Assembly: GCA_020055645.1 (NCBI GenBank) | Contig: CM034546.1 | Coordinates: 46,934,001 to 46,998,000 of the forward strand | Origin: Tomocerus qinae | Lineage: Eukaryota; Arthropoda; Collembola; Entomobryomorpha; Tomoceridae | Direction: 5' to 3' | Length of the DNA: 64,000 bases | In this document: positions 2,649 to 37,625 of the stretch, one piece after another | Layout: the number at the start of each line of letters is the position of its first letter | Numbering within the stretch: the first letter of the stretch is position 1 | The notes under the pieces: generated by a model | What the model was told of the DNA's origin: nothing | Database searches by the model: none | The model's input: only the letters and a program-made list of their open reading frames with translations | Made by a program: the position numbers and the translations under genes

Positions 2649-4257
2649 CATGTGTTGACGGTGAGGTTACAAATGTGTTGACGGTGTAGTTACGAATGTG
2701 TTGACGGCGTGGTTACAAATGTATTGACAGTGTGGTTACGAATGTGTTGACGGTGTGGTTACGAATGTGTTGACGGTGTGGTTACAAATGTGTTGACAGT
2801 GTGGTTACGAATGTGTTGACGGTGAGGTTACAAATGTGTTGACGGTGTAGTTACGAATGTGTTGACGGCGTGGTTACAAATGTATTGACAGTGTGGTTAC
2901 GAATGTGTTGACGGTGAGGTTACAAATGTGTTGACGGTGTAGTTACGAATGTGTTGACGGCGTGGTTACAAATGTATTGACAGTGTGGTTACGAATGTGT
3001 TGACGGTGTGGTTACGAATGTGTTGACGGTGTGGTTACAAATGTGTTGACAGTGTGGATACGAATGTGTTGATGGTGTGGTTACAAATGTGTTGACGGTC
3101 TGGTTACGAATGTGTTGACGGTCTGGTTACGAATGTGTTGACGGTGTGGTTACAAATGTGTGGATACGAATGCATTGACGGTGTGGTTTACGAATGTGTT
3201 GACGGTGGGGTTACAAATGTGTTGACGGTGTGGTTACGAAAGTGTTGACAGTGTGGATACGAATGTGCTGACGGTGTTGTTACAAATGTGTTGATAGTGT
3301 GGTTACAAATGTGTTGACGGTGTGATTACGAATGTGTTGACGGTGTGGTTACAAATGTGTGGATACGAATGCATTGACGGTGTGGTTTACGAATGTGTTG
3401 ACGGTGTGGTTACAAATGTGTTGACAGCGTGGATACGAATGTGTTGACGGTTTGGTTTACGAATGTGTTGACGGTGTGGTTACAAATGTGTTGATGGTGT
3501 GGTTACAAATGTGTTGATGGTGTGGTTACAAATGTGTTGACGGTGTGGTTACAAATGTGTGGATACGAATGCATTGACGGTGTGGTTTACGAATGTGTTG
3601 ACGGTGTGGTTACAAATGTGTTGATGGTGTGGTTACAAATGTGTTGACGGTCTAGTTACGAATGTGTTGACGGTGTGGTTACAAATGTGTGGATACAAAT
3701 GCATTGACGGTGTGGTTTACGAATGTGTTGACGGTGTGGTTACAAATGTGTTGACAGCGTGGATACGAATGTGTTGACGGTTTGGTTTACGAATGTGTTG
3801 ACGGTGTAGTTACAAATGTGTTGACGGTGTAGTTACAAATGTGTTGACGGTGTAGTTACAAATGTGTTGACGGTGTAGTTACAAATGTGTTGACGGTGTA
3901 GTTACAAATGTGTTGACGGTGTAGTTACAAATGTGTTGACGGTGTAGTTACAAATGTGTTGATGGTGTGGTTACGAGTGTGTTGACGGTGTGGATACGAA
4001 TGGGTTGACGGTGTGGTTAAGAATGTGTTGACGGTATGGTTACAAATGTGTCGACGGTGTGGTTACGAATGTGTTGACGGAGTGGTTACAAATGTGTTAA
4101 CGGAGTGGTTACAAGTGTGTTGACGGAGTGGTTACAAGTGTGTTGACGGAGTGGTTACAAATTTGTTAACGGCGTGGTTACACAAGTGGTGATAGTATTG
4201 TTACAAATGTGTTGACGGTGTGGTTACACATATGATGACGGTGTGATTACACATAGC
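2649..4257. repeat. 23-base minisatellite array, about 70 copies
   Basis: The unit is close to TGTGTTGACGGTGTGGTTAC plus three bases (ACGAA or ACAAA at the joint), starting at 2651 and again at 2674. Units differ by point changes (ACGG/ACAG, GTGTGG/GTGTAG, CGAA/CAAA). There are shortened units with GTGTGGATACGAATGCATTG inserted around 3150, 3357, 3560 and 3690. The array degenerates toward its right end (4080-4257, 'ACGGAGTGGTTACAA' variants). It is non-coding and G/T-rich on the + strand. Confidence 0.95.
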
Positions 4258-19942: not shown

Positions 19943-20062
19943 TGTCGGGTAGGAGTAGGATATGGTGGAAGCATGTAGATAAATGTAAATGTTAGCGGGG
20001 CTGTCGTGGCCAATCAACGAGAAGCAGCCCGTAGGCGGCTTCGAGTTGACGGACCAAGCCAG
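19943..20062 (+). repeat. 120-base isolated copy of part of the 4.93 kb unit
   Basis: Read by eye, this segment (TGTCGGGTAGGAGTAGGATA at the left end, ACGGACCAAGCCAG at the right end) matches 40431-40550, and the equivalent place in every other 4.93 kb copy, with no mismatch found. Similarity stops abruptly at both ends: ...GGGG|TGTC against ...AATAT|TGTC on the left, and CCAG|GCTC against CCAG|ATTT on the right. In the large array it covers about 60 bases before, and 25 codons of, a conserved open frame. Here it directly precedes the 166-base satellite. Confidence 0.9.
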
Positions 20063-20254
20063 ATTTCCGTTAAGAAATAGAACGTCTGATAGCAGTTGGC
20101 ACCCACGGGCAGCCGCCGTCAAAATTTTTTTCCAAAAACTTACTGTATGATATTTCCCCCGTTTAAAAACCAAAAAAATGCGCGCGCGCGCTCAAAGCAA
20201 GTTACCCCAACAGGGCCACAGTGCCCCCAATTCATTCCAAATAAAAATAACTCA
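20063..20254. other. satellite left flank with alternating CG run
   Basis: Non-repetitive spacer containing TGCGCGCGCGCGC at about 20178-20190, an alternating purine-pyrimidine run that can adopt Z-DNA. A C-rich stretch (TATTTCCCCCGTTT) lies just before it. No gene. Confidence 0.55.
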
Positions 20255-23200
20255 AATCACATCTCCCGCCTTAACGGCTTAACCAATTTGGACGATGATT
20301 AACCAAAGTGTACTTTTACATGCTACATACCCGACAGCCGCGCACCAATGCCGCACACTGCCCGGTTTGCGCGCAATAGCATTTCAAAAGTTAATACATA
20401 TTGTATATCATACTGAATGTAATCACATCTCCCGCCTAAACGGCTTAACGAATTTGGACGATAATGGACCAAACTACGGTACTATATGTTACCTACCTGT
20501 CACCCGCGCACCAATGCCGCACACTGCCCGGTTTCCGCGCAACACAATTTCAAAAGTTGATACATATGGTATATCCCACTGAATGTAATCACATCTCCCG
20601 CCTAAACGGCTTAACGAATTTGGACGATAATTAACCAAACTGTAGTAGTATATGCTACCTACCTGCCAGCCGCGCACCAATGCCGCACACTGCCCGGTTT
20701 GCGCGCAACTCAATTTCATAAATTTAAACATATGGTATATCACACTGAATGTAATCACATCTCCCGCCTAAACGGCTTAACGAATTTGGACAATAATAGA
20801 CTAAACTGCAGTACTATATGTTACCTACCTGTCAACTGCGCACCAATGCCGCACACTGCCCGGTTTGCGCGCAACACAATTTCAAAAGTTGATACATATG
20901 GTATATCCCACTGAATGTAATCACATCTCCCGCCTAAACGGCTTAACGAATTTGGACGAAAATTAACCAAACTGTAGTAGTATATGCTCCTTACCTGCCA
21001 GCCGCGCACCAATGCCGCACACTGCCCGGTTTGCGCGCAACTCAATTTCAAAAGTTGATACATCTGGTATATCATACTGAATGTAATCACATCTCCCGCC
21101 TAAACAGCTTAACGAATTTGGACGATAATTAACCAAACTGTAGTAGTATATGCTAACTACCTGCCAGCCGCGCACCAATGCCGCACACTGCCCGGTTTGC
21201 GCGCAACTCAATTTCATAAATTTAAACATATGGTATATCACACTGAATGTAATCACATCTCCCGCCTAAACGGCTTAACGAATTTGGACAATAATAGACT
21301 AAACTGCAGAACTATATGTTACCTACCTGTCAACTGCGCACCAATGCCGCACACTGCCCGGTTTGCGCGCAACACAATTTCAAAAGTTGATACATATGGT
21401 ATATCCCACTGAATGTAATCACATCTCCCGCCTAAACGGCTTAACGAATTTGGACGATAATTCACCAAACTACGGTACTATATGTTACCTACCTGTCACC
21501 CGCGCACCAATGCCGCACACTGCCCGGTTTCCGCGCAACACAATTTCAAAAGTTGATACATATGGTATATCCCACTGAATGTAATCACATCTCCCGCCTA
21601 AACGGCTTAACGAATTTGGACGATAATTAACCAAACTGTAGTAGTATATGCTACCTACCTGCCAGCCGCGCACCAATGCCGCACACTGCCCGGTTTGCGC
21701 GCAACTCAATTTCATAAATTTAAACATATGGTATATCACACTGAATGTAATCACATCTCCCGCCTAAACGGCTTAACGAATTTGGACGATAATTAACCAA
21801 ACTACGGTACTATATGTTACCTACCTGTCAACTGCGCACCAATGCCGCACACTGCCCGGTTTGCGCGCAACACAATTTCAAAAGTTGATACATATGGTAT
21901 ATCCCACTGAATGTAATCACATCTCCCGCCTAAACGGCTTAACGAATTTGGACGATAATTAACCAAACTACGGTACTATATGTTACCTACCTGTCACCCG
22001 CGCACCAATGCCGCACACTGCCCGGTTTCCGCGCAACACAATTTCAAAAGTTGATACATATGGTATATCCCACTGAATGTAATCACATCTCCCGCCTAAA
22101 CGGCTTAACGAATTTGGAAGATAATTCACCAAACTGTACTACTATATGTTACCTACCTGTCACCCGCGCACCAATGCCGCACATTGCCCGGTTTGCGCGC
22201 AACACAATTTCAAAAGTTGATACATATGGTATATCCCACTGAATGTAATCACATCTCCCGCCTAAACGGCTTAACGAATTTGGACGAAAATTAACCAAAC
22301 TGTAGTAGTATATGCTCCTTACCTGCCAGCCGCGCACCAATGCCGCACACTGCCCGGTTTGCGCGCAACTCAATTTCAAAAGTTGATACATCTGGTATAT
22401 CATACTGAATGTAATCACATCTCCCGCCTAAACAGCTTAACGAATTTGGACGATAATTAACCAAACTGCAGTACTATATGTTACCTACCTGCCAGCCGCG
22501 CACTGCCCGGTTTGCGCGCAACTCAATTTCAAAATTGATACATCTGGTATATCATACTGATTGTAATCACATCTCCCGCCTAAACAGCTTAACGAATTTG
22601 GACGATAATTAACCAAACTGCAGTACTATATGTTACCTACCTGCCAGCCGCGCACCAATGCCGCACACTGCCCGGTTTGCGCGCAACTCAATTTCAAAAG
22701 TTGATACATATGGTATATCCCACTGAATGTAATCACATCTCCCGCCTAAACAGCTTAACGAATTTGGACGATAATTAACCAAACTGCAGTACTATATGTT
22801 ACCTACCTGCCAGCCGCGCACTGCCCGGTTTGCGCGCAACTCAATTTCAAAATTGATACATCTGGTATATCATACTGATTGTAATCACATCTCCCGCCTA
22901 AACAGCTTAACGAATTTGGACGATAATTAACCAAACTGCAGTACTATATGTTACCTACCTGTCACCCGCGCACCAATGCCGCACACTGCCCGGTTTCCGC
23001 GCAACACAATTTCAAAAGTTGATACATATGGTATATCCCACTGAATGTAATCACATCTCCCGCCTAAACGGCTTAACGAATTTGGAAGATAATTCACCAA
23101 ACTGTACTACTATATGTTACCTACCTGTCACCCGCGCACCAATGCCGCACATTGCCCGGTTTGCGCGCAACACAATTTCAAAAGTTGATACATATGGTAT

Positions 23201-24040
23201 ATCCCACTGAATGTAATCACATCTCCCGCCTAAACGGCTTAACGAATTTGGACGAAAATTAACCAAACTGTAGTAGTATATGCTCCTTACCTGCCAGCCG
23301 CGCACCAATGCCGCACACTGCCCGGTTTGCGCGCAACTCAATTTCAAAAGTTGATACATCTGGTATATCATACTGAATGTAATCACATCTCCCGCCTAAA
23401 CAGCTTAACGAATTTGGACGATAATTAACCAAACTGCAGTACTATATGTTACCTACCTGCCAGCCGCGCACTGCCCGGTTTGCGCGCAACTCAATTTCAA
23501 AATTGATACATCTGGTATATCATACTGATTGTAATCACATCTCCCGCCTAAACAGCTTAACGAATTTGGACGATAATTAACCAAACTGCAGTACTATATG
23601 TTACCTACCTGCCAGCCGCGCACCAATGCCGCACACTGCCCGGTTTGCGCGCAACTCAATTTCAAAAGTTGATACATATGGTATATCCCACTGAATGTAA
23701 TCACATCTCCCGCCTAAACGGCTTAACGAATTTGGACGATAACTGACCAAACTGTGGTACTGTATGTTACCTACCCGCCAGCCGCGCACCAATGCCGCAC
23801 ACTTCCCGGTTTGCCCGGAACAAAAGTTTCAAAAATATATACATATTGTATATCCCACTGAATGTAATCACATCTCCCGCCTAAACAGCTTAACGAATTT
23901 GGACAATAATGGACCAAACTTTACTACTATATGTTACCTACCTGCCAGCCGCACATCAATGCCGCACACTGCCCGGTATGCGCGCAACAAAATTTCAAAT
24001 ATTTATACATATGGTATATCCTACTAAACTTAATCACATC
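20255..24040. repeat. 166-base satellite array, about 23 units
   Basis: The unit starts at AATCACATCTCCCGCC and includes AACGGCTTAACGAATTTGGA, CCAGCCGCGCACCAATGCCG, CACTGCCCGGTTTGCGCGC and a TGATACATATGGTATATC end. GAATGTAATC recurs at 20415, 20581 and 20747, a period of exactly 166. Shorter units lacking CAATGCCGCAC and a few bases occur near 22490, 22810 and 23460. Higher-order structure is present: a 498-base trimer repeats at 20699 and 21197, and a 968-base block repeats at about 22051 and 23019. Edge units (20255-20415 and 23750-24040) are the most diverged. All open frames within it are by-products of the repeat. Confidence 0.96.
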
Positions 24041-25791
24041 TAGTAATATTATTGTAAAATCCTTTGACTGGCCAGTGTTAGTATATCATTGTAGATAATA
24101 TTTGGTTTTAATTAATTTTATTCTCATTTTCATATTATTTTGTTCAATTTTGAAAAAATCTATACTACCTATGTCGCTTTTAGTTTAAAGGGGCAGCACC
24201 TCGGCAAGGGCATACGATCTGTATTATATAGAATACAGATAGTATACAAAAGCGACTCGCCACCCGCCTACCTAACTCTAGTTCATTTAAAAAGATTATT
24301 GCGAACCGGTTTTCCTAAATTGAGGCGATTCTTTAAAATATAACCTACCTTAATCTTGCATTTGAGTTTATCTAGTAACATCTACGGGAGTTTGCCTGTA
24401 TATACTGTAAAAATATTTTTTATCTCTATTTTTCACGTCATTGTTGGGTATTTTATTATATTTACCTTGCTTAAAATTTTAACTATTTTTGTTTAAAGAA
24501 CTTTTTTTATATTACTATCCAAAAATCTTTATATGACTACATATTAGTGTTTAAAGCGGAGATGCCTAAAGTTATTACTTATTATTTTAACCAATTACCT
24601 CATTCGGATATGAGGGCTAGTGGTAACCTGTTGTTACCGCTAGCCCTCTCCGTCGATGCATAGACGAACCCATCACGGTGGAGTGTAGGGAACAGTTCAT
24701 CCAAACACCGTACTGGACAATCCGAGTGGCCGCCCCTACACCCTTAATAAATCAAAGTTCTACTGTTGCGGCTTCAAGTCTCTAATAGAATATTTTAATT
24801 TTGTTACTATTACATCTTATTTCCCTTAATTGTCGTGTTCTACATACATGCTACATAAATAAATAATACATCACCTTCTCTTAAGCCTTCCATCGAGTGG
24901 CTCCCTTTCACCTCAGGAATAAACTTTATCGCCTGGGATTCACGAGGACGAGGAACTACCTTAAAAAATTAAGTCTCATTCATACATTCTACCCAGCCAT
25001 ATACTTAAAACATCAAACATAAGACAGCTTCCTTTAACTTACGCGGGAGCACCAATTGGTAATTACTATAACAATTTTACTTTCAACTGTGCGATCAGTT
25101 GTTTTTAACATGACCAATTTCCATTCTCGAGCACCAAGTAGTAAAACTAGGTAGTAAAAAGCAGATGCAATTTGCAATGAAACGTAAATTTTATCCCCAG
25201 ATAACAATATAGAAGATTTGAACTGATATTTAACCATTCTAAAATTGTCGTACTAACGAACAGATAGAAAGACAAATCAGGCAATTGGGTCATTTCTAAA
25301 ATTCAACCCCTCTTCTTAATGACGGACCAATTTTTGTAGTGTCTTAACCGAAATATCCAAACGATGTTAACGACCACTTTTCTGTGAATTGCTTGTAGGA
25401 TTTTCAAAGAACTTTATTATCCATTATATATAAATGAATATATTGCTTTTTTCAAAATCAGATTCATAAAATGAGATACATTTGTCGGCAGTCGAGTAAA
25501 ACAGGATTGTAGACTTTCAATTTCCTCTTCTAAGCCCGGCACTAATGTCACCTTAGGAAATAACATTAAAGTTATCAAGGCTCTATATCATGAAAGCAAC
25601 TGTTATGGTCGTATTGGTTTACCTCTGGTTCAATTGAATCGTAATAAACCCACGAAATAGCCCTGTCTTCTCCTAGCCGTCTTAAAAAACACGTAAAATG
25701 AGCCCCACTCAAGATGATTATGCTATGTAATGTTTTTCAAGGAGTTCTCCATGAACAGCAACATCTGTAGTAATTATATGTTTAAACCAGA
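24041..25791. other. non-coding stretch with hairpins and a GC-rich tract
   Basis: ATCTGTATT and AATACAGAT form a short perfect hairpin at 24219-24242. A strong hairpin at 24612-24648 is listed separately and is followed by a GC-rich tract to about 24745 and then AT-rich DNA. No gene is supported. Confidence 0.45.
24612..24648 (+). other. strong 16-pair hairpin
   Basis: GAGGGCTAGTGGTAAC, loop CTGTT, then GTTACCGCTAGCCCTC. All sixteen pairs form in RNA (one is G-U). It opens a GC-rich block of about 130 bases in AT-rich surroundings. It could be the 3' structure of a retroelement or a structured RNA; nothing decides between these. Confidence 0.7.
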
Positions 25792-26463
25792 TCAATTGGT
25801 ATGATTATTTTTCAAATAAACTATACCAATACCCAATTTAAGCGAAGGAATAATGTGAATGTTGCCATCTAAAAATTGTTGACGAAATCCATTGTCAATG
25901 ATTAGCGGATGTGGGTCAGCATCAAACTCGACTTTTGCTTCTGACAAACTGAAATCAAGGGCATCTTGAAGATGTACTCCATGTCGACCCCTGGGATTAG
26001 CATCATGGAGTAAAACTTGAACGTATTCAGTAAACGGGGTTTTAGATAAGTAGTGGATAAAGGAGGTAGACCCAGTAGGTCTCTGAAGAATGCAGACATT
26101 AAGAGCCCTGAATCTGGTAATTTTTTGTGATATTTAGTTATACGTTTAAAGTAAAGATAAACATGAAATAGGGTATATCCATCTACCGACATAACCGCCA
26201 TCAAATGCTGAATTAATTGTGGCAAGACGTTGCCTAAGACCACTTGTTTTGAGATGTGGCACATAATTTTGAATGCGCAAGGTAAGTTTAATGACATCTA
26301 ACTCCATTTTTGCAACGAAATTCGGTGACGTATCCAACAGATCGTCAAAATGGTTTCCATTGAACAAGAGGCACATTAAAAGGCAGTCTAATGCGCAAGA
26401 ATTGTTGCTCCATTGTATACCGACTTTCTTTCCTGTGGTCATACCTACGACATACGAAACCAT
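25792..26463 (-). CDS. small protein with USPL1-like Cys-box (broken)
   Basis: The N-terminus has IQWSNNSCALDCLLMCLLF (from residue 16), which resembles the catalytic Cys-box of the USPL1/C98 cysteine peptidases (W-x-N...C-x-L-D-C-x-L). A role as a ubiquitin- or SUMO-deconjugating enzyme is inferred from this motif alone. The frame closes after residue 92, but a 73-base intron (26114-26186, GTAGAT...TTACCAG, phase 1) joins it to DSGLLMSAFFRDLLGLPP. A one-base shift near 26060 then gives YLSKTPFTEYVQVLLHDANP, ending at a TGA at 25792. The expected length after splicing is about 199 residues. No catalytic His could be assigned. The upstream region is disrupted by an inserted element, so the true start may be lost. 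Confidence 0.5.
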
Positions 26464-26480
26464 TGATTTAATATTAGATA

Positions 26481-26873
26481 ATAGGCAGTTAGTTTTATCC
26501 CTTAGTGTAACTTTGGGCTTTGCGTAGGGTAAGTCTTTACGCGGCTTCCTTTTCGAAGCTTACTTACACTACGGTTACGTAGAATAGTTAGTGATTTTCC
26601 GTAAGTATTTGGTTGCTAGGTTCCATAATTTCGAAAATTAACTTTGTAGAAAAACATGAATAATGCCAGTCGCCTGGGTAACTACATCCTGGGAGGGCAC
26701 AAGGGCACTGCGTATGCCCGTAAGTCTGAAACGTATTGTAGTCATTTTTACGTTTCGTAACTCAATTTTTTTTGGCGTAGCCTAGGATTTTTACGGAAAG
26801 GGGAGGGGTTTGACGTAAGACTTACACTACGGGAGGCTCATTTTTACACTACGGGAAAAAACTAACTGCCTAA
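26481..26873. mobile_element. 393-base inverted-repeat element inserted in the transposon locus
   Basis: The left end TAGGCAGTTAGTTTTATCCC and the right end GGGAAAAAACTAACTGCCTA are inverted copies. Inside lie sub-terminal copies of a CCCGTAGTGTAAG-like motif in both orientations (near 26506, 26565, 26832 and 26850). TAGATA is present immediately outside both ends (26475-26480 and 26874-26879), a possible 6-base target duplication. No coding frame. It separates the Cys-box frame from the unknown acidic protein. Confidence 0.75.
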
Positions 26874-27043
26874 TAGATATTTGCACTGTTATTTAAATCA
26901 TATGTATATTTTTACATGATCGTCTGTTGTGCCTAAATTTATAATCACGTCTTTCTGCTCTTCTTTCCATTTGACCAACTAAGTGTTGGTAGCGCATTTC
27001 CCCTAAGGAAGACTAAAAAGGGAGGCAAGCGTTAGTAGCATCT

Positions 27044-27976
27044 CTATTCATTCTTTTTGTTTAATAAATATATTACGTCAAACTGCAGTGAGGAATGAAA
27101 TTTGCCGACCAAGTCTTCGGTTTGTAAGATTTCAGCACTGGAGCCAGCTTCCTTGAGTTTCAGTTCGATATAAAGATGCAACAGACCCAGGTTTCTATAG
27201 GAAGTTGAACGTACAGCAAAATCCACAGAACTGATGTTATTTTGTACATCTGTAGTCCAATTTAGGAAGGCGGTGTGAAAAAGTGAAAGCTGCCTAGCAG
27301 TGTATATCCAGTTAAGTCCCACCGTCAGGGGACGTAGGGGAACAAGGTTTAAATGTCGGGCTCTTCGGTCATTGTCCATATTTAGTGCAATATCTCTAAG
27401 ATATTCAAAAGTTTCTTCAAGGGCCCTTGTGAATATGTCATCGCGTATGTAATAGACAGAATCAGGATTTTTTAACCGAACGTTGACATAAACATTAAGA
27501 TTTGGTGTTGTCACTGGTCTAGATGTTTGAACAACCGGTGCTACATCCGGAGGATTAGTGGCATTAGCCTTTTTTGAATGTCCTAAAACGTCATCGACAA
27601 GGTCATTATTGTCATATTCCCAATCTTTGCCCCATGCGTTTAAGTTCTCTTCGCAAATGTCAGCTTCTGTAAGAAAGCGCTTGCACCATTCTTCAATAGA
27701 TCCAATTTCTTCTTCCCGACACCCTGACCGAGGAAATGATAATACCAATTTAAAATTTTTAGATGTGCGTTTATTACCCATACTTGCGCTGCTGCCATTA
27801 CCTGTAGTAACTTTAGCTTCGTTATTAGTTGAAATTCCTGTTTCAGCTACAAGCTCCTTGACTAGATTTTCTAACTCTGCTTCCACATCTTCGGTAATGA
27901 TCAAATCCGCATCTACATCTTCCGCGATTTGTATTGCACCACAGTCCAAATTAACATCTTCAAAGACAAAAGCCAT
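27044..27976 (-). CDS. unknown acidic protein of the transposon locus
   Basis: This open frame of about 310 codons starts at the ATG at 27976 (MAFVFEDVNLDCGAIQIAED); the frame extends three codons further upstream without another ATG. The first 60 residues are strongly acidic (EDVDADLIITEDVEAELENL). A Ser/Asn/Gly-rich linker follows, then a mixed region with WCKRFLTEADICEENLNAWG. The C-terminal 170 residues look folded and helical (DDIFTRALEETFEYLRDIAL, LNWIYTARQLSLFHTAFLNW). I do not recognise a family. It begins 71 bases after the transposase stop and is the only coding block in the locus without a frame break. A role as an accessory transposition or host-interaction protein is a guess from position. 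Confidence 0.65.
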   Translation of the reverse strand: MAFVFEDVNLDCGAIQIAEDVDADLIITEDVEAELENLVKELVAETGISTNNEAKVTTGNGSSASMGNKRTSKNFKLVLSFPRSGCREEEIGSIEEWCKRFLTEADICEENLNAWGKDWEYDNNDLVDDVLGHSKKANATNPPDVAPVVQTSRPVTTPNLNVYVNVRLKNPDSVYYIRDDIFTRALEETFEYLRDIALNMDNDRRARHLNLVPLRPLTVGLNWIYTARQLSLFHTAFLNWTTDVQNNISSVDFAVRSTSYRNLGLLHLYIELKLKEAGSSAEILQTEDLVGKFHSSLQFDVIYLLNKKNE

Positions 27977-28047
27977 TAAAATCACTTAATACATTACAAC
28001 ATTTGTTGTTTTTACATTTGATGGACCTCTTACCATTAGAGATATTA

Positions 28048-30942
28048 CTAGCTTCGCAAGAAACAGAAACGATTCCCAAATAATCTTCTCCCACGTCGCC
28101 TCTCCTTCCAAGATTCAACGATCTCCTTTAGTCGTGGTACTTTGCTTACCTCGTCATCCATAGTAGTGTTTTCGCTTTCACAATCTTCATTTCTTTTCCT
28201 TTTTGGTCGGGATGTTGGAATTCGATTTCCTCTTGCTCGAAAGTGTTGTAACATGTAGGTCGTCAGTATGTCTACCATAACGGCCAGTCGAGAAGGGGAC
28301 ACAATTTTGTGTCTAAGCACATTTTTCAGAATGCTGTTAAATATAATTTTTACGTCATTTGTTGGACTTATTGTTTAGGAATATGAAATACTTTATCTGT
28401 TTGGTAACTACCCAAAAAACTTTTCGACAAGTCCGTTGGTGAGTGCTTTTGCACTTGAATCTACAGCTCTAAAACAGAAATTTGCCCAAAGTGGAATATA
28501 TGGAGCATATGTCTGAAAAATGGTACACCAATTAATAATACCAAGGTATTAGCACATAGTAATGGCCCATTCAATGAGTGGTATTTACCTTTAAGAACGC
28601 TTTTAATAAATCGGGATTCCAAAATACACTGGGCTCCAGACCATCGACATCCATTCCTAGACATTTAGCTTCCTCTGCCATAATATGCATATATTGGCAT
28701 ATAACATTACATTGTTGATATGTTCTTGTTTTGCTTTGTGGCATTCCAATCTGAAATGACCGCTTAAAGTATTCCGTAGCGGGGGTCATATTCATACAAT
28801 TTAGTATATTTTCTTTTCCACATAGTTGACGGACGTAACTAGAAACAGTTGCTGACAGATATTGCATGTGTGAAACATGACACCACATGTAATAAACCCA
28901 TAAAAATCTTCAATGGTTTCGGCATCTATCATTAAAGCAAATGCATTGAGTGCAAGTTTTCTCTGTTGGGCAAGAATTACTTTGTCTTTTCCTAACTCTC
29001 GTGACAAGTTGTCGCTTAAGCTCTTCATCAGGTGAGAGCTGCACAGTGTGTGTAATACCTTATGAGGATAATCTTCTATTTTGATCAATCCTGCCGCCAG
29101 CATTGTAAGTTGATATATATATTCGTAAGGATCCATAGAGCAAAATACAGAAATGACGCTGTTCACAAGTGCCATTGAAAAATCACTATTTATTCTGAGA
29201 ATGTAATTGTTTGGCGAGATTTGCTCATCTAATGCAGATTTTAAAAGTTGAAGCCTATCACTGATAGCTTTAATATTATGGACCGAATTAACGAAAGTGA
29301 AGGCGGGGAGTATAAATCCTTTTCCCAGGCCATCACTGTGAGGCGTTGCTGCAGTATAAACCATGCTATATAAGTAAATAGGAGTTACAACTTGTGGATG
29401 CCGAGTAACGCTTCCAGTGCTGTCAAAATAGATTGTAGCATTTTTGCTTTTTAATATGTGTTTCACAAGTAGGTCAACAGCCGTTGTCGACAACATGGAA
29501 AATCGAAATCCTAGTGTATCGTTGTGGGGTTTTACATCTTTAATACTTGTTGTTAGTTCCCCTCTTTTGATAAGATCGGTAGTTGGGTCTTTGTCTAGCT
29601 TGCTATCTTGCCTTACTTCATGTAATATGGTCCGGCCAACGTTAATCCCAGGATACATTCCAATACTAGTTTTGTTGCGTCCAACGTCTTTGCTTGCCCT
29701 AATGCTCCAAACCATTGAACCTATGTCCTCAATAATAGCTTTGGCATTATCTCTGTCTACACCGGTACATCTGTAAGCATGTGCATCCTCATCTGGAAGA
29801 AGGTAATGATTTCGAGTTCCCTGTTCTGTCACGGAAATTTTTACCTCTGAACCTTCTTGCGGCATTTCCTTAAGGTGGCATGAAAATGCCACTTTACACC
29901 TTCCAGCCTTGTAGGAACAACCGCCATAAAATTTTATCGCGGCCCCAACGCTATTGGGATTTTTTAATTTTCTAGCTCCAGTAGACCTAGCGAACTCGAT
30001 TCCCTCATGATGTTCTTCTAGTAAAGGCCTCATGATGCTGGTAAGTTTTAAATGTTTCGGCTTTCTCGTAATGTCATCGATTGCTTTTGTAAATTGATTA
30101 TTTCGGAAGTCCCAAATGTTTCTCCAATTCTCCGCAGAAACTGTAACACTGTATTTTTTACTTCGAGCATTTATTGCAGTGTTACATTCTACAGAAGGTG
30201 TTTGTTCACATTCTTCTTGTTGCACAACCGTCTCGTTTGACTTTCTAAGCGATGGGGATCTGATGTCATTGGCCGAATTTTTTGGTAAATTATTGTTTTC
30301 TCTGGTAGACTCCTCTTCGCGACATTCTTGCGGTTCTGAAACTGTTGCGATTGGATCATCTGTGGGGCATACAGATGAAGCTTTAACTGTCGTCACTGAC
30401 TGAACCCATTGTTGGAATTTTGCATTACGCTTGAAAGACACAGCCATTAGTTTTGATCTACTCTCTGCTTCAGTTTTCTTTAACACGAATACAGTGTCAA
30501 TTAGTTTTTTCCAATCTGTCCTGCTCCACTTCTCAATGTCCTTAAGGTCATAATCTTTGATGTAGTTTTCTATTGCTGGTATAGCACATGTTTGTGTACA
30601 AAATTTTTTATTTGCTATTTTGCACTTGCATACCTTGGTGGAATGTAGAGCATGGTGCTTGTCCATATCATAAAATTGTGGTGTGCGTAGATGTTCCAGT
30701 GCCGTAGGAGCTGCAATTTTTATTTGCAAAGGTATACTCATCTGGACACCCGTGGTTAGGTTTATTGGCAATGCGGGAGGTCTGTTAACCTGTAGGTCTC
30801 TAAACTGTTCAAATCTAGGTATATATGGAGTTTGGCGATTAGATTTGGGTATTAAAGGGACAAAATGGTTGCAAGCCGAACCAAATGAAATGTCAGCTGG
30901 ACGCATATGTAATGCCAGAGGTGGTCTTAGAGCCCATTCCTA
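28048..30942 (-). CDS. Mutator-like (MULE) DDE transposase, spliced, with frameshifts
   Basis: The enzyme would cut and join DNA at the element's ends. Its N-terminal part carries Cys clusters (KVCKCKIANKKFCTQTC) and a WRKY/GCM1-like DNA-binding pattern (FYGGCSYKAGRCKVAFSC...NH). The catalytic core shows D1 in IYFDSTGSV (codon at 29424), D2 in SDFSMALVNSV (29184), the C-x2-H of the MULE family in CSSHLMKSL (29043-29032), and E in NGLVEKFFG (28425). The exon to 28589 is followed by introns 28513-28588 (76 bases, phase 0) and 28334-28411 (78 bases, phase 2). Both keep the frame and restore the E motif. The frame ends at 28048 after a basic tail (KERRRGRR). A one-base shift near 28900 interrupts the core between C-x2-H and E. 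The start of this frame carries the OTU catalytic His, so it was probably fused to the preceding OTU frame. Confidence 0.8.
28334..28411 (-). other. intron 2 of the MULE transposase
   Basis: Donor TTTTTTGG/GTAGTT, acceptor TATTTAACAG/CATT, 78 bases, phase 2. It joins VEKFFG to ILKNVL across a split glycine codon. Confidence 0.85.
28513..28588 (-). other. intron 1 of the MULE transposase
   Basis: Donor AAG/GTAAATACC, acceptor TTTTTCAG/ACA, 76 bases, phase 0. It joins KAFLK to TYAPYIPLW. Confidence 0.85.
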
Positions 30943-31640
30943 TTTTGAAGAAATTTCCAACTCGTTTCCATGTAGTTCTCTAATCGTTCAGACGTTAAGC
31001 TATTGGGAAGGTTTAAATAAATGTACACAGGGCACTGAAAAAGCATCGAGGCAGCCAAAACATGTTCGCTTTCGCCCCAGTTTGGACTTTTAAGTGCTTT
31101 AATAACCAACTCCGATATAGGATTCACTGGTGACTCTAAAACTTGTCCGGCATTTTCATGAAGCGCAACAGCTTTAAAATAATCCTCGTTATATATTATT
31201 ATGGCCGCAATCAAGAATCTCATTGCATTTGAGTAGGCAATGGTGCCGGTACTTAACATGGAGAGACTATCATAAAAACAGTCACCCTGAGCCCTTACAG
31301 TGCATGGTTGTAAGTCCGTAGTTAGTTGACCTGGGAGCATTCCAAACGACTCAGGATCAACTGGTATGTCACTTGCAAGTACTCGACTGACTCCACAAAT
31401 TTTCATGAGAAGATCTACGTCTTCCTTCCAAGTTTTCATAATGTTTTTTAATCGACGTACGTCTGACCCAACAGAAGGCAATTGCCTGAGAGCCATGCGG
31501 TGATAACTGTTACCTAAATCCTTGAAACCAGGTGTATTAATAATATCTTTAACTACTGATTCGCATTTGGCATTGTTGGTATTATCGTCATCTTCGTCAG
31601 CAACTTCATTGTTTTCAATATGTTTCCACCCTATTTTCAT
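30927..31640 (-). CDS. OTU-type cysteine peptidase domain
   Basis: The catalytic Asp-Cys loop of OTU deubiquitinases is visible as VRAQGDCFYDSLSML (Cys codon 31280-31278). It is followed by the expected helix (AMRFLIAAIIIY) and by WGESEHVLAASMLFQCPVYI, which matches the OTU 'WGg..el.AlA..l...I.vy' stretch. The catalytic His (CNHFVPLIP, codon 30867) lies in the first residues of the next frame, so a one-base shift at 30930-30942 splits the domain. About 90 acidic and basic residues precede it. Its frame is open from about 31700 and overlaps the end of the upstream repeat protein by about 85 bases in another frame. Together these blocks look like one long protein broken by indels, or joined by splicing I could not resolve. 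The role is cleavage of ubiquitin-like tags; the target is unknown. Confidence 0.75.
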   Translation of the reverse strand: MKIGWKHIENNEVADEDDDNTNNAKCESVVKDIINTPGFKDLGNSYHRMALRQLPSVGSDVRRLKNIMKTWKEDVDLLMKICGVSRVLASDIPVDPESFGMLPGQLTTDLQPCTVRAQGDCFYDSLSMLSTGTIAYSNAMRFLIAAIIIYNEDYFKAVALHENAGQVLESPVNPISELVIKALKSPNWGESEHVLAASMLFQCPVYIYLNLPNSLTSERLENYMETSWKFLQNRNGL

Positions 31641-33826
31641 TGGCTGTTGGCAAGTGGTAGGCGGTATTGCAAGAAGGATTAGCTTCGGGAAAGTTTGTCA
31701 CATTTTCGATTTTCGACAGATTCGTTGATTCATATTGTAGCTGCTGTGATCTTGAACGAGTCACTTGTTGCAAGTAGTCTACCATTTTTTTAAAATTTGT
31801 AGAAATCGTTTTGAGATATGGGTTAACTTCTTCTACTGGGGTAGTATGCCCTACCTCATTCCCAACATGCTGGGCATTTTCTTGTGAACTTATGTCAATC
31901 GGATTTTCTGTATTTTTTTCGACATTGACAATATCTTTTTCAAACTGTTCGGTTTCGTTGCCAACATCAGCACCGAAATGAACCCGCCTGCGCCTGAAAG
32001 ACGACGTATTTCTATTTTGTCTAGCAGTGGCTGTTTGTCCATCTTGTTGGTTTGAAGATGACGTGTTTCTATTTTGTCTAGCAGTGGCTGTTTGTCCATC
32101 TTGTTGGTTTGCAGTTGACGTGTTTCTATTTTGTCTAGCAGTGGCTGTTTGTCCATCTTGTTGGTTTGAAGATGACGTGTTTCTATTTTGTCTAGCAGTG
32201 GCTGTTTGTCCATCTTGTTGGTTTGAAGATGACGTGTTTCTATTTTGTCTAGCAGTGGCTGTTTGTCCATCTTGTTGGTTTGAAGATGACGCGGTTCTAT
32301 TTTGTCTAGCAGTGGCTGTTTGTCCATCTTGTTGGTTTGAAGATGACGCGTTTCTATTTTGTCTAGCAGTGGCTGTTTGTCCATCTTGTTGGTTTGAAGA
32401 TGACGTGTTTCTATTTTGTCTAGCAGTGGCTGTTTGTCCATCTTGTTGGTTTGAAGATGACGCGTTTCTATTTTGTCTAGCAGTGGCGGTTTGTCTATTT
32501 GGTTGGTTTACAGATGCGAGATTGCTGTTAACTTGATTAGCAGCTGCTGATTGTTCAAATTGTCCACTTACATGGGACTGACCGCTTTGATATTCGCGGC
32601 TGTGACTCAAAAAGGATTCATTCCTGTTATCACCAGCTGTAGCTGTTAGCACACCTCGGCGAGTAGACGACCCATTACTTTGGTTCCTGCCAATAGAAGC
32701 TGTGTTAACATCTCGCCTATTAGCAGATAAGTCATTTCTTACATTTTCACCAGTAGTAACACTGTGGTGGTCAAACATTAATTTCTCTTCTAGGTTAAAT
32801 AAATTAGCTCCTAACTGACTTCTCCGATTGTGGTTGTCAATCAATGGGACATTTTCTTGTCTGTTTTGAGCTCTGTTAAATCTTCGAATAAATCTTTCTT
32901 TTGCAGCAGCTACCCTTTCTTTGATAACAGCTGCCCTTTCAGAGGCAGACTTCCACCATTGATTTTGACGAATCCACTCAGTTGGTCTTAGAAACATTTC
33001 TCTATCTCCTCCAGGGCTCCAATGATCTGGATCAATGAAATTCAGCTTTTCCATCAAATTTTTACTTAAATGACCTAATTTCTCCCATACTTCGTCTTTC
33101 ACACTATGGACATGGTTGTCTATAGAAGCTGTTCTGGGTATTTCAGCTTCTCTTGGTAGTCGACTTTCTTTGGCCAATTCCCGCAACCATTCACGTTCTA
33201 ATCTTAATAGCCTTTCTTGCTCTTTCTGAAAATCTTGGTTCCCTGTGCATGGGGAAGCGGCTTCTTTATGGTCAAAGTAAGATGCATAATATGGCCGACC
33301 ATCATCCTTTTTGTATTTATCTTCGTTGAAATATGATGCAAAATACGGTGCGTCATCTCTATAAATACTGTTGTTGGAGGTACTTGTAGAATAAGGAATA
33401 TGAGATGGTGCAGCCTTTTTCTTGCTATTTGCTTGCTTTTCCTGATTCCTGAAGTACTGCATTTGACGGTCAAAATTTGAAGTATTTCCTTTGAATGGAG
33501 ACAGGCTAACTTTCTGTCTTCGACGAGTTTCTGCACTGTCGGGGATAGACGGCATCCGAAACCGGTTTGCTGTTGCTAACTCTTGCTGATGGACGGCTTT
33601 CATTGTTATCAGTGGAATGGAAATCATTCTTTTTGTGCTTCGCCGTTTCATTTTCAGCAAACCCTCCAAAAATTATTGCTGCTTCAGCAGTCTCTGTTAT
33701 TTCATGTACAATGTACTCGTATTCTTCAGGTATAGGCGGTAAAGGCCTATCTTGAAAATCTGGTTTGCTAATGGCCGTGATTGTACCGTACCCAGTTGAA
33801 AAGGATTTGATGGATTCATAATCGTT
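31615..33826 (-). CDS. disordered protein with 19-residue tandem repeats
   Basis: The main frame runs from about 33669 (no ATG at that point; first ATG at 33651) to a stop at 31615. An upstream frame (33826-33600, beginning AENDYESIKSF and including DFQDRPLPPIPEEYEY) also reads as protein and starts at a possible acceptor (TTTTACGCAG). The real N-terminus is therefore probably further upstream, joined by a one-base shift near 33590. The protein is hydrophilic and rich in Asn, Gln, Arg and Ser. Its centre holds about nine copies of DGQTATARQNRNTSSSNQQ (31990-32510). N-terminal features include three 'APYFASYF'-like motifs (YFASYFNEDKYKK, YYASYFDHKEA) and a Trp-rich stretch (WIRQNQWWKSASERAAVIKE). 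No enzymatic domain is seen. It could be a scaffold or DNA-binding N-terminal part of the transposition protein. Confidence 0.6.
31990..32510 (-). repeat. 57-base in-frame coding minisatellite
   Basis: About nine copies of a 57-base unit (TAGCAGTGGCTGTTTGTCCA recurs every 57 bases from 32022 on the + strand). It encodes the 19-residue repeat of the disordered protein. Copy differences are few: GTG/GCG in the Thr/Ala codon and one GCAGTT unit at 32111. Confidence 0.95.
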
Positions 33827-33830
33827 CTCT

Positions 33831-34114
33831 GCGTAAAAATCATAATAATTTCGTTATGCCAAAAATTTCTAATTCATATTTAATTTTGATAGTCAAAATT
33901 AAGGTATTTTAATAATGACTGTCATAACTATTGCATCTTCCTGTTAGTCAATATTAATCAACTTTAGCAGGTAAAGTAGGTGGGTGGGAGTGCCCAATTT
34001 GGCTTATTTCTGAATTTATTTTTGCGGTGTGGGTGCTGGTAGAACCTATTTCACGACTTTGCACGGTGAGAATGGCCAAAATTACAACGATTTTTATTCA
34101 TTTCGTATTTAGCT
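33831..34114. other. spacer 5' of the transposon locus
   Basis: AT-rich DNA; probable promoter or 5' intron region of the - strand locus. No clear TATA or initiator was identified. Confidence 0.35.
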
Positions 34115-34668: not shown

Positions 34669-35024
34669 TATGCTTTTTAGTTTTCCTTAGATAAATAAAT
34701 GAAAGATGAAAACCGAAATCAATCCAAATCCCGACAGCTTGTTTACTCAACCAGTCATCAACATGTCTTTTTTAATTTATTCAGTAATCGATTTCGCATA
34801 GGGCATCATCAGACTGTTGAAAATAATTACATTATAATACATAAATTAAAAATGAGGATTTTATAAATGAATAATAATTGTTCAATCAGAACATCGAATC
34901 AGTCATATGCTACACTTGTACTTTGTATTTTTTATGTATTATTACCATTAGTAGAAAAACTCATAACACTAACCTTATTATGTAAATTAACAATGTTGGA
35001 GGTAAGAGTAGTTAGTAATTTTGA
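34669..35024 (-). repeat. Penelope-like element terminal repeat, copy A (356 bases)
   Basis: Starts TATGCTTTTTAGTTTTCCTT and ends GTTAGTAATTTTGA (+ strand). It is repeated directly at 35025 with only a few differences (for example AATCAGTCA against AATCAGCCA, CAATGTTGG against CAATGATGG). It contains a hammerhead-like motif. Confidence 0.93.
34748..34819 (-). ncRNA. hammerhead-ribozyme-like fold, copy A
   Basis: On the - strand, CAACAGT is followed by the core CTGATGA, a short helix II with loop (GCCCTATGC), and GAAA. Then ATCGA and, 26 bases later, TTGAT form helix III, and ACTGGTTG closes helix I with the first segment. The order and pairing match a type I hammerhead. Degenerate points are an extra T after CTGATGA, only two pairs in helix II, and a G at the cleavage-site position, which normally blocks cleavage. 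Hammerhead motifs are known in the terminal repeats of Penelope-like elements. Confidence 0.55.
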
Positions 35025-35380
35025 TATGCTTTTTAGTTTTCCTTAGATAAATAAATGAAAGATGAAAACCGAAATCAATCCAAATCCCGACAGCTTGTTT
35101 ACTCAACCAGTCATCAACATGTCTTTTTTAATTTATTCAGTAATCGATTTCGCATAGGGCATCATCAGACTGTTGAAAATAATTACATTATAATACATAA
35201 ATTAAAAATGAGGATTTTATAAATGAATAATAATTGTTCAATCAGAACATCGAATCAGCCATATGCTACACTTGTACTTTGTATTTTTTATGTATTATTA
35301 CCATTAGTAGAAAAACTCATAACACTAACCTTATTATGTAAATTAACAATGATGGAGGTAAGAGTAGTTAGTAATTTTGA
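35025..35380 (-). repeat. Penelope-like element terminal repeat, copy B (356 bases)
   Basis: Direct tandem copy of 34669-35024. It joins the 3' untranslated region of the RT frame at 35381. Copy A is the outer one. Confidence 0.93.
35104..35175 (-). ncRNA. hammerhead-ribozyme-like fold, copy B
   Basis: Same motif 356 bases away, with all paired segments and the CTGATGA...GAAA core conserved and the same G at the cleavage-site position. Confidence 0.55.
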
Positions 35381-35536
35381 GATCCTTACATCAGTTAATT
35401 TAGAATTTAGAATTTAGTTCACATTTTAATTCAATACAGGTTTAGACTTACAACATCCTGATTTGTCTTCACATTGGTAAGTAATTAAGCGGGACAATTG
35501 CATAAAAGCTATAAACAAAAATCATATCATGTATCA
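35381..35536 (-). other. 3' untranslated stretch of the Penelope-like element
   Basis: AT-rich and without coding frame. No GIY-YIG domain is encoded between the RT frame stop and the terminal repeat. Confidence 0.6.
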
Positions 35537-37625
35537 CTAAGTGTAATCCTTGACAATCATAGTAGTGAGACCATTTACTTTGGAGAATGAGACAATTATC
35601 TGTAGGCTATTTACAGCTAATTTATATTCATAATTTTCACATTTAAGAGACTCTTTCATTATAGTATCTAATATAATACGTTTATAATTCTTAATATTCT
35701 TATAAAAAGGCATGACAAAATAACAGGTGTTATTAAAACTCTGATCGTACTTAATTACATTTACAGGTGTAATTTCTAACTTTGATAAAATTTCCGGGTT
35801 ATGAATAGATAAGTTCGTAATTAAAAGATGTTTTTTAGGTGTTAATAATTCCGATCTATTGATCGTGTTCAATTTATAACGTGTTTCCTCTAATAGGTTA
35901 TCGGGGTACATTCGCAATTTGAATTTATGGAATAAATTATCTAATTCATCATTTCTGTCAGTAAAACTACTACATGTTCTTATTACCCTTAAGCCTTGTG
36001 CATATGGGATGGATTTAAGTAAACTTTTACTGTGGTTCGAATAGTAGTGGAGTGGTTGGGCTTTTTGACATCGGTTTACGATACAGTTTTGTTATTATAG
36101 TATTGTCGGATGTTAAAGTAATGTCTAAATCTAGAAATGATGTACGTGTATCCTGGATATCAAAAGGTAAATTCTAGGAAATTATGTGTAAGTGTATCAG
36201 ATAACCATTCATTTGGATTAGATAAATCTGTGGTATCCAAAATTATAAAAATATCGTCTAGAAATCGTTTACGAAAAGTTATCTCCTTCTTATCAGTAAA
36301 CAAATTTTCAATTTCCTTGTATACAGTAATATTTGCGATAGAAGGAGAGCTAGATCCTCCCATCTGGATACCTTTAAATTGGTAGAAATATTCCCTTTTA
36401 TACTTTACAAAACTATGATCTAAGCTTAAATCTAAAAGTTTACGCATCTGTATGGTGGTGATATCAAAAGGTACATTAATTTTGTTATGAAATTCCTCAT
36501 ACATATTACAGCAGTGAGTTTTACATGACTTAAGTGGTAGATTTGTATATAAAGATACAATGTCTATAGTGATTAGTTTGTAGGTACGATTAGAATCTAG
36601 CGTTAAATTATCAAGTAAAATTAGCAAATGCGTAGTGTCTAGAATTAAATCGGGTACAAAATTCATTATAGGTTGCAAAAATAAATCCAGTAGTTTACTT
36701 ATGTTTCTATTGACTGTGTAAATAGTAGAACTGATGGGTCTCCCTTTGGAAATATTTCAAATGGCTTATGGATCTTTGGTAAAATATAGAAATTCGCAGG
36801 TTTATAATTATTTGGTATTAATTTTGATAATTTACAATTGGGTGGAAATGTTTTCTCTAGAATACAAACCTGATCCCTAAATGTAAGTACATCTAAATTG
36901 TAATGCATTTCAGTACTCGGGTAATATACATTTTCATCATATAATTGATTAAATATTTCTTGATCGTATAGACCCTCTTCCATGAAACAAATACCTGCAT
37001 TTTTGTCCGACTATTTCACTATAATATTATTATCGTTACAGTATTTACTAAAGTCTTTACATAAATTAGGGGGTAATAGCTTAGGCCTAGATGAACATTT
37101 TTTGATTTCGCTAATAAGATTGTCATACAGATTTTTGTCAGGGAACATAACATATTCGTCCTCGCAATGTACCTTTTCTGTTCGTTCTACCTTTTGTTTG
37201 TGTTTTTTACAATTAATTATAAATTTTTGTAAATCGTTATTCGTTTCGCTCGTGTCACTTAAAATTGAGAAGTAAGCATTCCAAGCTACTTTTCGAATAC
37301 CTTCACAAAAAGCTTTCTTTATATTATTAAAATTAGGAAAGGTAGGTACAGAGAATTTAAGACCTAAACTTAACAGTGCTTTAAACTTATCAGGAATTTT
37401 AATTGTAGTCAGATTGTGTATTGTGTTTTGTGTTTGTCGAACTGAACAGAATAATTTGTATAATCTATTGTAATTTTCACCATTCAATTCTTTCACATCA
37501 AAAACTCTATTCATGTTATAAAATCTCCTATTTCTCTTTTTAGTTGTATTTAAGGTTGTATTGGGAGTATAAAATATTTGTGAATCATTATCACTTATTG
37601 CAGTTGTGTAAGAGTCAGATGTCAT
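35537..37625 (-). pseudogene. Penelope-like reverse transcriptase (ORF2), broken
   Basis: ORF2 starts at the ATG at 37625 (MTSDSYTTAISDNDSQIFYT). It has a basic N-terminal domain with LLSLGLKFSVPTFPNF and then an in-frame TAG at about 37011; the frame continues SDKNAGICFMEEGLYD. PANFYILPKIHKPFEIF leads to a one-base shift at about 36735, where KGRPISSTIY resumes. The palm motifs are DIVSLYTNLP (first Asp codon 36564), GIQMGGSSSPSIAN, and FLDDIFIIL (Asp pair 36258-36253), with F-L-D-D in place of the usual Y/F-V-D-D. Shifts near 36160 and 36050 separate SFLDLDITL and KSIPYAQGLRVIRTCSSF, and the last part runs to a stop at 35537. The C-terminal region (YKNIKNYKRIILDTI) is typical of the family before a nuclease, but no nuclease follows. 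All RT blocks are present in order. Confidence 0.85.

Follow-up and report, generated by a model that had tools for sequence, protein, structure and literature searches.

A young foldback-type DNA transposon of Tomocerus qinae with an OTU-like domain joined to its transposase and a CYLD-like gene

The window analysed here, a stretch of 64,000 nucleotides from Tomocerus qinae contig CM034546.1, contains a truncated copy of a young cut-and-paste DNA transposon of about 25 kb, with foldback-type ends and target site duplications (TSDs) of 8-9 bp. The first-pass annotation had noticed an OTU motif beside a D...D...C-x2-H...E core, with a W-x-N...C-x-L-D-C motif further on, and all of these are real, as judged by a PF02338 match, the sequence itself and the relatives; the extent it gave (25792..33830) was too small, gene 2 running to about 25422 and the element starting at 20063. 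Its proposal that two different deconjugating-enzyme domains travel with one transposase is supported, and the pair is kept in a diverged second family (family B).

Ends and copies of the element

The left boundary was fixed at 20063 because the flank at 19943-20062 (120 bp) is identical to one unit of a 4.94-kb array. The window copy is missing its right part, terminus included, and the inverted counterpart of its left terminus was found at the opposite end of copies c1, c7 and c57. Near-identical DNA is present at a minimum of six places in the genome, window counted (family A). Copy c1 (25,118 bp) has both ends and a perfect 9-bp TSD, GCGATGTGT; c7 (23,801 bp) has both ends and the TSD TTTAAAAAA, and c57 (about 25.5 kb) both ends and the TSD CGTTTCAT(A). 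Terminal inverted repeats (TIRs) and target duplications of 8-11 bp had been suggested as a check: TIRs were present in these three copies, their halves 91.2-92.6% alike across 1.9-2.9 kb, and TSDs of 8-9 bp at three of the four copies having both ends, while none was found when looked for at the deleted copy c10. The long inverted termini of c1, c7 and c57 are built of 166-bp tandem units at both ends, as in foldback-type elements.

Copies c1 and c2_5M are 99.8% identical across 11.8 kb and the element is therefore recent. Copy c10 is an internally deleted form of 7.7 kb, in which the CYLD-like exons are kept and the transposase is gone. The window copy has frame changes in both genes and longer open frames occur in other copies, with both genes fully open in none of the six family A copies read. 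The small inverted-repeat element inside gene 2 was found in all six near-identical copies, with dozens more copies elsewhere. No relative of the transposon was found in the viral contigs scanned, and Rfam gave no match in the window at the gathering threshold.

Table 1. Positions in the window of the features of the transposon copy
Feature	Position	Strand	Remarks
Left terminal inverted repeat	20063..24041	.	Terminus ATTTCCGTTAAGAAATAG, then array of 166-bp tandem repeats at 20255-24041 (TRF)
Gene 2, CYLD-like	25422..26997	-	Exons about 26997-26916, 26444-26187, 26113-25833, 25764-25623, 25551-25422
Gene 2 Cys box W-x-N-N-S-C-A-L-D-C	exon 26444-26187	-	Sequence
Gene 2 His/Asp boxes GAHFTCF...WVYYDSI	exon 25764-25623	-	Sequence
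397-bp non-autonomous inverted-repeat element	26479..26875	.	59-bp arms, 81% complementary; lies in first intron (inferred) of gene 2
3' exon of gene 1 with conserved C-terminal domain	27044..27985	-	By eye, similar exon in family B, spliced in frame
Gene 1 exon past catalytic E, basic and acidic stretch	28048..28333	-	Inferred splice sites, 3' end approximate; family B counterpart
Catalytic-Glu exon of gene 1 (NGLVEKFFG)	28412..28512	-	Sequence; counterpart exon in family B
Gene 1 DDE transposase core	28589..30864	-	ORF 28801-30906 and overlapping frame 28571-28888
Catalytic residues	D 29424-29422, D 29184-29182, C 29043-29041, H 29034-29032, E 28425-28423	-	Sequence; motifs recur in relatives
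Gene 1 OTU-like domain	30865..31330	-	Cys 31280-31278, His 30867-30865; PF02338
Gene 1 N-terminal Gln/Asn/Thr-rich region	31331..33840	-	Start codon approximate; in frame with OTU in c7 (1283 aa)
End of match between window copy and others	34669..34687	.	c1, c2_5M and c7 alike beyond, window different

The two genes of the element

Gene 1 runs from a repeat-rich N-terminus through the OTU domain and the D/D/C-x2-H/E transposase core to a conserved C-terminal domain, the splice sites in both genes being predicted from DNA. The N-terminus has nine 19-residue repeats at 31998-32516 (TRF: 57-bp unit, 9.1 copies); two other frames, 31890-32507 on the minus and 32027-32536 on the plus strand, were judged shadows of this 57-bp repeat. 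Rather than the neighbouring genes for which they had been taken, the OTU-like domain and the transposase are, going by their single reading frame in c1 (1072 aa) and in family B (1503 aa, free of stops), predicted to form one polypeptide. The window OTU matches PF02338 over 31292-30957 (E=3.9e-5, 24.6 bits against a curated cut-off of 23.3). All six family A loci that have a transposase match also gave one to PF02338; it fell below the cut-off at one of these loci, as it did in families C (20.7 bits) and B (16.9 bits). The OTU Cys and His are invariant across families A, B and C; the residue three before the catalytic Cys, where Asp is expected, is Gln in A, Asn in B and Asp in C, and this replacement in A and B makes the catalytic activity of the domain uncertain. 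Against solved OTU structures the OTU profile matched weakly (best OTUD5, E=0.031), the window OTU sequence by itself had no PDB match at E<=1, and an AlphaFold model built from three sequences (pLDDT 38) was too poor to support the fold.

The same was true of the transposase model (five sequences, pLDDT 49), an RNase H-type order of strands and helices being seen only in this low-confidence model; the transposase profile had no PDB match at E<=5, and NCBIfam gave nothing useful with three transposase pieces. There was no Pfam match for the C-terminal domain of gene 1, which a 190-aa frame in family C resembles by eye. The D, D, C-x2-H, E pattern is present, also by eye, in families A, B, C and D. 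Target duplications, termini and motif order all fit the Mutator type given in the first-pass annotation, but of the 92 hits that the Pfam MULE profile (PF10551) has across the genome at E<=10 not one falls on a locus of families A-G, and no MULE match was found at E<=1 for eight transposase pieces of families A-E; the basis of the assignment is thus the target duplications together with the termini and motifs. The transposase pieces of families A-E had no Pfam integrase family match either, and membership of Ginger1 was rejected on this ground and because the OTU precedes the transposase core.

Exons 2-5 of gene 2 are open through the inferred junctions in c1, c57 and c10, the splice site after exon 4 is changed in c57, exon 1 is the least certain, and the introns lie at matching places in family B. 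A profile of gene 2 searched against PDB matched CYLD (2vhf, E=1.1e-16; 3wxe, 3wxf and 3wxg, about 1e-15), which was also the top match in single-sequence searches with A (8.3e-6) and B (8.3e-5). In the alignment the gene 2 Cys falls at the Cys position of CYLD, where the 3wxf row has Ser, and the His and Asp (Asn in B) align with the five CYLD rows covering them, so that gene 2 is predicted to encode a CYLD-type catalytic domain, with Cys, His and Asp boxes in common with this USP-family deubiquitinase (2vhf). It is nevertheless very divergent from CYLD, with long branches; G and Y of the CYLD Cys box are W and A in gene 2, which also lacks the Cys-rich insert of the host CYLD genes L047, L048 and L049.

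The W-x-N...C-x-L-D motif of gene 2, which we take to resemble the C98 signature, fits the USPL1/C98-type SUMO protease that the first-pass annotation had made of it, but that identity is now very improbable, as CYLD was the first and only good match in profile and single-sequence searches (judged by PDB and Pfam matches) and an intron is in common with host CYLD genes. Gene 2 had no Pfam match at E<=10, a weak test by itself, since the UCH family was also missed, though a host CYLD control matches UCH. By its sequence and this common intron gene 2 is identified as kin to the CYLD genes of the host, in which 23 CYLD-like stretches were found at E<=1e-3. The intron, of phase 1 and before the conserved Asp, is common to A, B and all five host CYLD paralogues read, and therefore points to capture of a host CYLD gene by the element as the probable direction; in a tree A and B grouped together (100/98), with long branches and a placement among host genes that is unsure.

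Related families and possible roles of the enzymes

In family B, with a transposase 40% identical to that of A and a CYLD-like gene 36% identical, every part is kept in unchanged order, and this matching order, together with the six near-identical places, argues that the parts of the element are not assembled by chance. Intact relatives lacking one of the genes had been named as evidence against the pairing; B keeps both, but family C, with its OTU kept in frame with the transposase, has no CYLD-like gene within the 15 kb read, family D has two Ulp1-type (C48) genes in place of the OTU and CYLD-like ones, and family E, by profile matches and position, has two C48 matches 6-8 kb downstream of the transposase. 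The exact OTU/CYLD pair is therefore not obligatory. Family F has an OTU match (by profile) upstream on the same strand as its transposase, and profile scans of family C87 and of two decayed loci (C1:61.39M and 63.34M) gave no OTU or C48 match. Some deconjugase thus accompanies six of seven transposase families, or six of nine counting the decayed loci, which are known from scans only. A UPF0236 (PF06782) match in family C (E=0.055) was given no weight.

It is probable, from these sequences, that the OTU tethered to the transposase and the host-derived CYLD-like enzyme of this transposon both serve transposition via ubiquitin. The transposase would bind the repeat-built ends and move the element, the tethered OTU module would act in cis, deubiquitinating the transposase or the complex at the DNA ends, and the free CYLD-like enzyme would trim chains on host factors in trans, which could spare the transposase from degradation or dampen repair or immune signalling. 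In related families two Ulp1-type (SUMO-protease-like) genes seem to serve this purpose. The element may in this way turn the ubiquitin system of the cell to its own use. An unlikely alternative is Pack-type capture, by which the CYLD-like gene would be a chance host fragment carried as a passenger that plays no part in transposition: the capture of genes by Mutator-type elements is known from two papers (PMC6446971, PMC6431247), c10 holds the CYLD-like exons in 7.7 kb lacking a transposase, and the 15-kb read of family C is without the gene. However, with identity down to 36%, the domain, its catalytic Cys and His and the places of the introns are preserved in both A and B, as would not be expected of a neutral passenger, and D, and E by position, carry other deconjugases instead.

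CYLD removes K63- and M1-linked chains in signalling, which would suit captured enzymes aimed not at the transposase but at host defence (ubiquitin/SUMO-dependent silencing, DNA-damage or NF-kB-type immune signalling). We regard this target as possible, if doubtful: the host has several CYLD-like genes (the 23 stretches above), and the portions available of the Ginger paper (PMC2836005) and the VTD paper (PMC9741609) respectively suggest ubiquitin/SUMO-repair links during transposition and speculate on a male-germline role of transposon deubiquitinases, but the fusion of the OTU to the transposase speaks for a target within the transposition complex or close to it. Returning to enzymes that serve transposition, a bolder form, which we think has a slim chance of being right, is a lineage of giant foldback elements whose transposase obligately needs a ubiquitin-family deconjugase and which has acquired three kinds of it (OTU fused in, CYLD taken from the host and paired Ulp1 genes), the CYLD type acting against host repair or immune signalling. 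The CYLD-derived enzyme would then be a cutter of K63/M1 chains and the several host CYLD genes a possible counter-move. The swapping of OTU, CYLD and Ulp1 types beside related transposases in one genome opens to testing the question of which ubiquitin or SUMO step a transposon must overcome, and a CYLD-derived enzyme would be an instance of host signalling machinery, here an enzyme, taken over by a mobile element.

Comparison with known transposons

Several transposons that are not related to one another (Ginger, Mutator and Helitron) carry deconjugating enzymes, of putative role, and such enzymes are thus already known; the CYLD-derived one predicted here appears new to the searched literature, in which, subscription journals and Repbase aside, no report of such an enzyme was found. 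The Phantom subclass is reportedly due to Marquez and Pritham (2010).

In the part available of its description (PMC2836005), Ginger1 resembles the present element in having an OTU or Ulp1 protease domain added to the transposase protein, one or the other by family within the lineage, but its core is Gypsy-integrase-like with a C-terminal protease, whereas here a D/D/C-x2-H/E core follows an N-terminal OTU, and the elements tabulated there measure 2.6-7.1 kb, compared to about 25 kb with a CYLD-like gene here. The same partial text cites Mutator elements with Ulp1, the SUMO-protease-type domain of families D and E, from hydra, lancelet, Arabidopsis and other plants, and mentions there neither an OTU fusion nor a CYLD-like gene (PMC2836005); the present transposase further differs in being missed by the Pfam MULE profile. 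Helitrons with VTD and OTU likewise have two deubiquitinase classes per transposon, and some of the VTD enzymes tested active, but these are rolling-circle elements with a different deubiquitinase class, and the name CYLD does not occur in the text of that paper (PMC9741609).

MULEs have TSDs of 8-11 bp and often long TIRs, by the available part of PMC6446971. The foldback/Mutator elements Tm1 (PMC3169594) and Tetris (PMC4079207) are, in those parts of their descriptions to hand, like the present element in their long composite TIRs, which in Tetris contain tandem repeats, and TSDs of 8-10 bp. Unlike it, Tm1 is of the Phantom subclass (FLYWCH and MULE domain), the word protease not occurring in the text of its paper (PMC3169594), and the Tetris copies described have no coding capacity (PMC4079207). 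Beside families B, C and D tandem arrays of 156-, 153- and 167-bp units respectively were seen, on the downstream side only.

Copies, ends and superfamily of the element

The window spans C1:46934001-46998000; its predicted introns, together with CYLD paralogues and numerous matches to the MULE profile, indicate a eukaryotic and probably animal genome. A DNA search with window positions 26000-27500 against the 334-Mb genome (115 contigs; counts are lower bounds) found at least five further copies of most of this stretch at 99-100% identity, and both ends of the element were present in the copies c1, c7 and c57 once their flanks were extended. These ends are inverted repeats, 91.2-92.6% alike across 1.9-2.9 kb, consisting of tandem units of about 166 bp and carrying the tip sequence ATTTCCGTTAAGAAATAG. 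The first-pass annotation had proposed looking for terminal inverted repeats and target duplications, and duplications were indeed found at three of the four two-tipped copies: GCGATGTGT at c1, TTTAAAAAA at c7 and CGTTTCAT(A) at c57, the last being 9 bp when one tip base is assigned to the target. None was found at c10, an internally deleted copy with two tips. The near-identical copies and the target duplications show that the element was mobile in the recent past.

The match of the window copy to the others reaches 20063 leftward and 34669-34687 rightward, where it ends while the other copies run on. The left boundary is exact, because the 120 bp bordering the tip on its left match, at every base, a unit of a 4.94-kb tandem array further right. 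The array has a strong G over C skew and no Rfam match, and the longest frame in the unit read is at most 124 aa.

The same annotation had called the transposase Mutator-like, and this holds for the anatomy: the target duplication length (8-11 bp in MULEs; PMC6446971), the foldback-type ends (as in the foldback elements Tm1 and Tetris; PMC3169594, PMC4079207) and the D/D/C-x2-H/E order all fit Mutator-type elements. However, none of the 92 MULE profile matches across the genome falls at any of the seven transposase families described below, and the transposase matched no PDB chain, so we use "Mutator-type" as a label by anatomy, with membership unproven.

An OTU-transposase fusion and a CYLD-like gene

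The OTU, transposase and CYLD-like domains are linked in the element, and are conserved in family B, whose transposase is 40% identical. Gene 1, which encodes the OTU domain and transposase, is interrupted by frame changes in the window, but OTU domain and transposase core share a single 1072-aa frame in c1, and the repeat-rich N-terminus and OTU domain a single 1283-aa frame in c7. In family B the N-terminus, OTU domain and transposase core lie in one 1503-aa frame, after which plausible predicted splice sites, worked out by eye, join three further parts in frame: the exon with the catalytic Glu, a basic/acidic exon and the C-terminal "ORF2" domain. The OTU profile PF02338 matched the window at E=3.9e-5 and families B and C below its curated cut-off (0.0091 and 0.00062). 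The OTU Cys and His are invariant across A, B and C. At the Asp position, three residues ahead of the Cys, family C has Asp, family A has Gln and family B has Asn. An OTU profile ranked OTUD5 first among PDB chains, but only with an E of about 0.03; the window OTU sequence alone matched none.

Gene 2 had been labelled USPL1-like, and this label gives way to CYLD: a profile of the A and B proteins matched the CYLD catalytic domain (2vhf, E=1.1e-16; 3wxe/f/g, around 1e-15), and CYLD also came first in single-sequence searches with A (8.3e-6) and B (8.3e-5). Exons 2-5 are open through inferred splice junctions in c1, c57 and c10; the last exon is split off by the insertion in c7, the splice site following exon 4 is altered in c57, and there are frame changes in the window and c2_5M copies. 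Intron positions in family B match those of A, and a phase-1 intron lies directly ahead of the conserved Asp in A, B and all five host CYLD-like genes read. The proteins are divergent, since Pfam at E<=10 gave no match for either yet recognised a host CYLD control (called UCH, 1.7e-7). The host has several CYLD-like genes, with 23 stretches matching at E<=1e-3. Counting against an easy kinship, the element copies were not among the matches of this CYLD query, and the element gene reached a known host CYLD paralogue at just E=0.0016. In a nine-sequence tree A and B grouped together (100/98) on very long branches, and thus the place of gene 2 among host CYLD genes is unsure.

Deconjugases in related transposase families

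Searches of the genome with the transposase distinguished seven families, A to G, and decayed pieces at C1:61.39M and 63.34M. An OTU match was present at all six family A loci (one under cut-off), and a CYLD-like gene in six of seven family A copies, including c10, with the C4 copy the exception. The proposed pairing of OTU and Cys-box genes recurs in family B, but no CYLD-like gene was found in family C within the 15 kb read. Ulp1-type genes adjoin the related transposase of family D, where two C48/Ulp1 genes stand side by side (E=7.7e-12 and 4.4e-17). By position in the profile scan, family E has two C48 matches on the same strand 6-8 kb downstream of the transposase, and family F an OTU match upstream of it on the same strand. 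OTU (E<=1) and C48 (E<=0.01) were absent from the genome-scan matches at G and both decayed loci. By frame or position, a deconjugase is therefore linked in six of seven families, or six of nine counting the decayed loci. Families B, C and D have tandem arrays on their downstream side, of 156, 153 and 167 bp.

According to the paper on Ginger elements (PMC2836005), Ginger1 transposases can carry an OTU or a Ulp1 domain; Ulp1 also occurs in Mutator elements from hydra, lancelet and plants, OTU also occurs in Helitrons, and Trichomonas has a C19 peptidase together with a transposase. VTD deubiquitinases are reported from Helitrons, 121 of them also carrying OTU (PMC9741609). The main text of a 2026 survey of arthropod MULEs contains no occurrence of OTU, ubiquitin, protease or Ulp1 (PMC13359780), and the literature searches turned up no transposon described as carrying CYLD. 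The kind of gene is therefore known; within the literature searched, what looks new is the CYLD-derived gene and the fact that it is paired with an N-terminal OTU fusion.

If the element proteins are made, they may cleave ubiquitin or SUMO, and such deconjugases could assist transposition, either through effects on repair, silencing or immune signalling in the host or because the transposase is spared. Fusion of the OTU domain to the transposase points to the transposition complex as the place of its target; the CYLD-like enzyme, as a separate protein, would have room for targets in trans.

Neighbouring and similar sequences

The 397-bp inverted-repeat element lies inside the copy-search query and has at least dozens of genomic copies, mostly 93-100% identical, some adjoining each other. 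The reverse-transcriptase-like frames of the window, which may be of Penelope type, resemble one at L039:6282-7394, which in family E separates the transposase from the two C48 matches. Further Ulp1/C48 frame pairs are arranged much as in family D; among the matches listed for the transposase, none of the family D type lies in their vicinity, and they perhaps belong to another transposon family.

Features of the window, element copies and related loci
Feature	Position	Description
Minisatellite	2646-4251	23-bp unit, ~69 copies, strongly G over C
Open frame	9825-11591	588 aa; F-box PF12937, E=1.1e-6; RhoGEF match weak, under cut-off
Piece of 4.94-kb array	19943-20062	120 bp, at the transposon's insertion point
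Inverted-repeat element	26479-26875	397 bp; tips GGCAGTTAG...
Tandem pair	34669-35387	356-bp copies, 98% identical, abutting the transposon break
Reverse-transcriptase-like frames	35540-36500	minus strand
4.94-kb array	38793-64000	~5 unit copies in view, 99.8% identical
c1	C1:83.08M	25,118 bp; both ends
c7		23,801 bp; both ends; gene 1 with gap, gene 2 with insertion
c57		~25.5 kb, including 100 N; both ends
Family A		6 loci
Family B	C1:14.22M	
Family C	C1:139.5M	
Family D	C1:128.86M	
Family E	C1:82.84M	
Family F	C9	
Family G	C87	
Ulp1/C48 pair	C21:80492-83477	
Ulp1/C48 pair	C21:55386-58373	
Ulp1/C48 pair	C1:18005712-18007281
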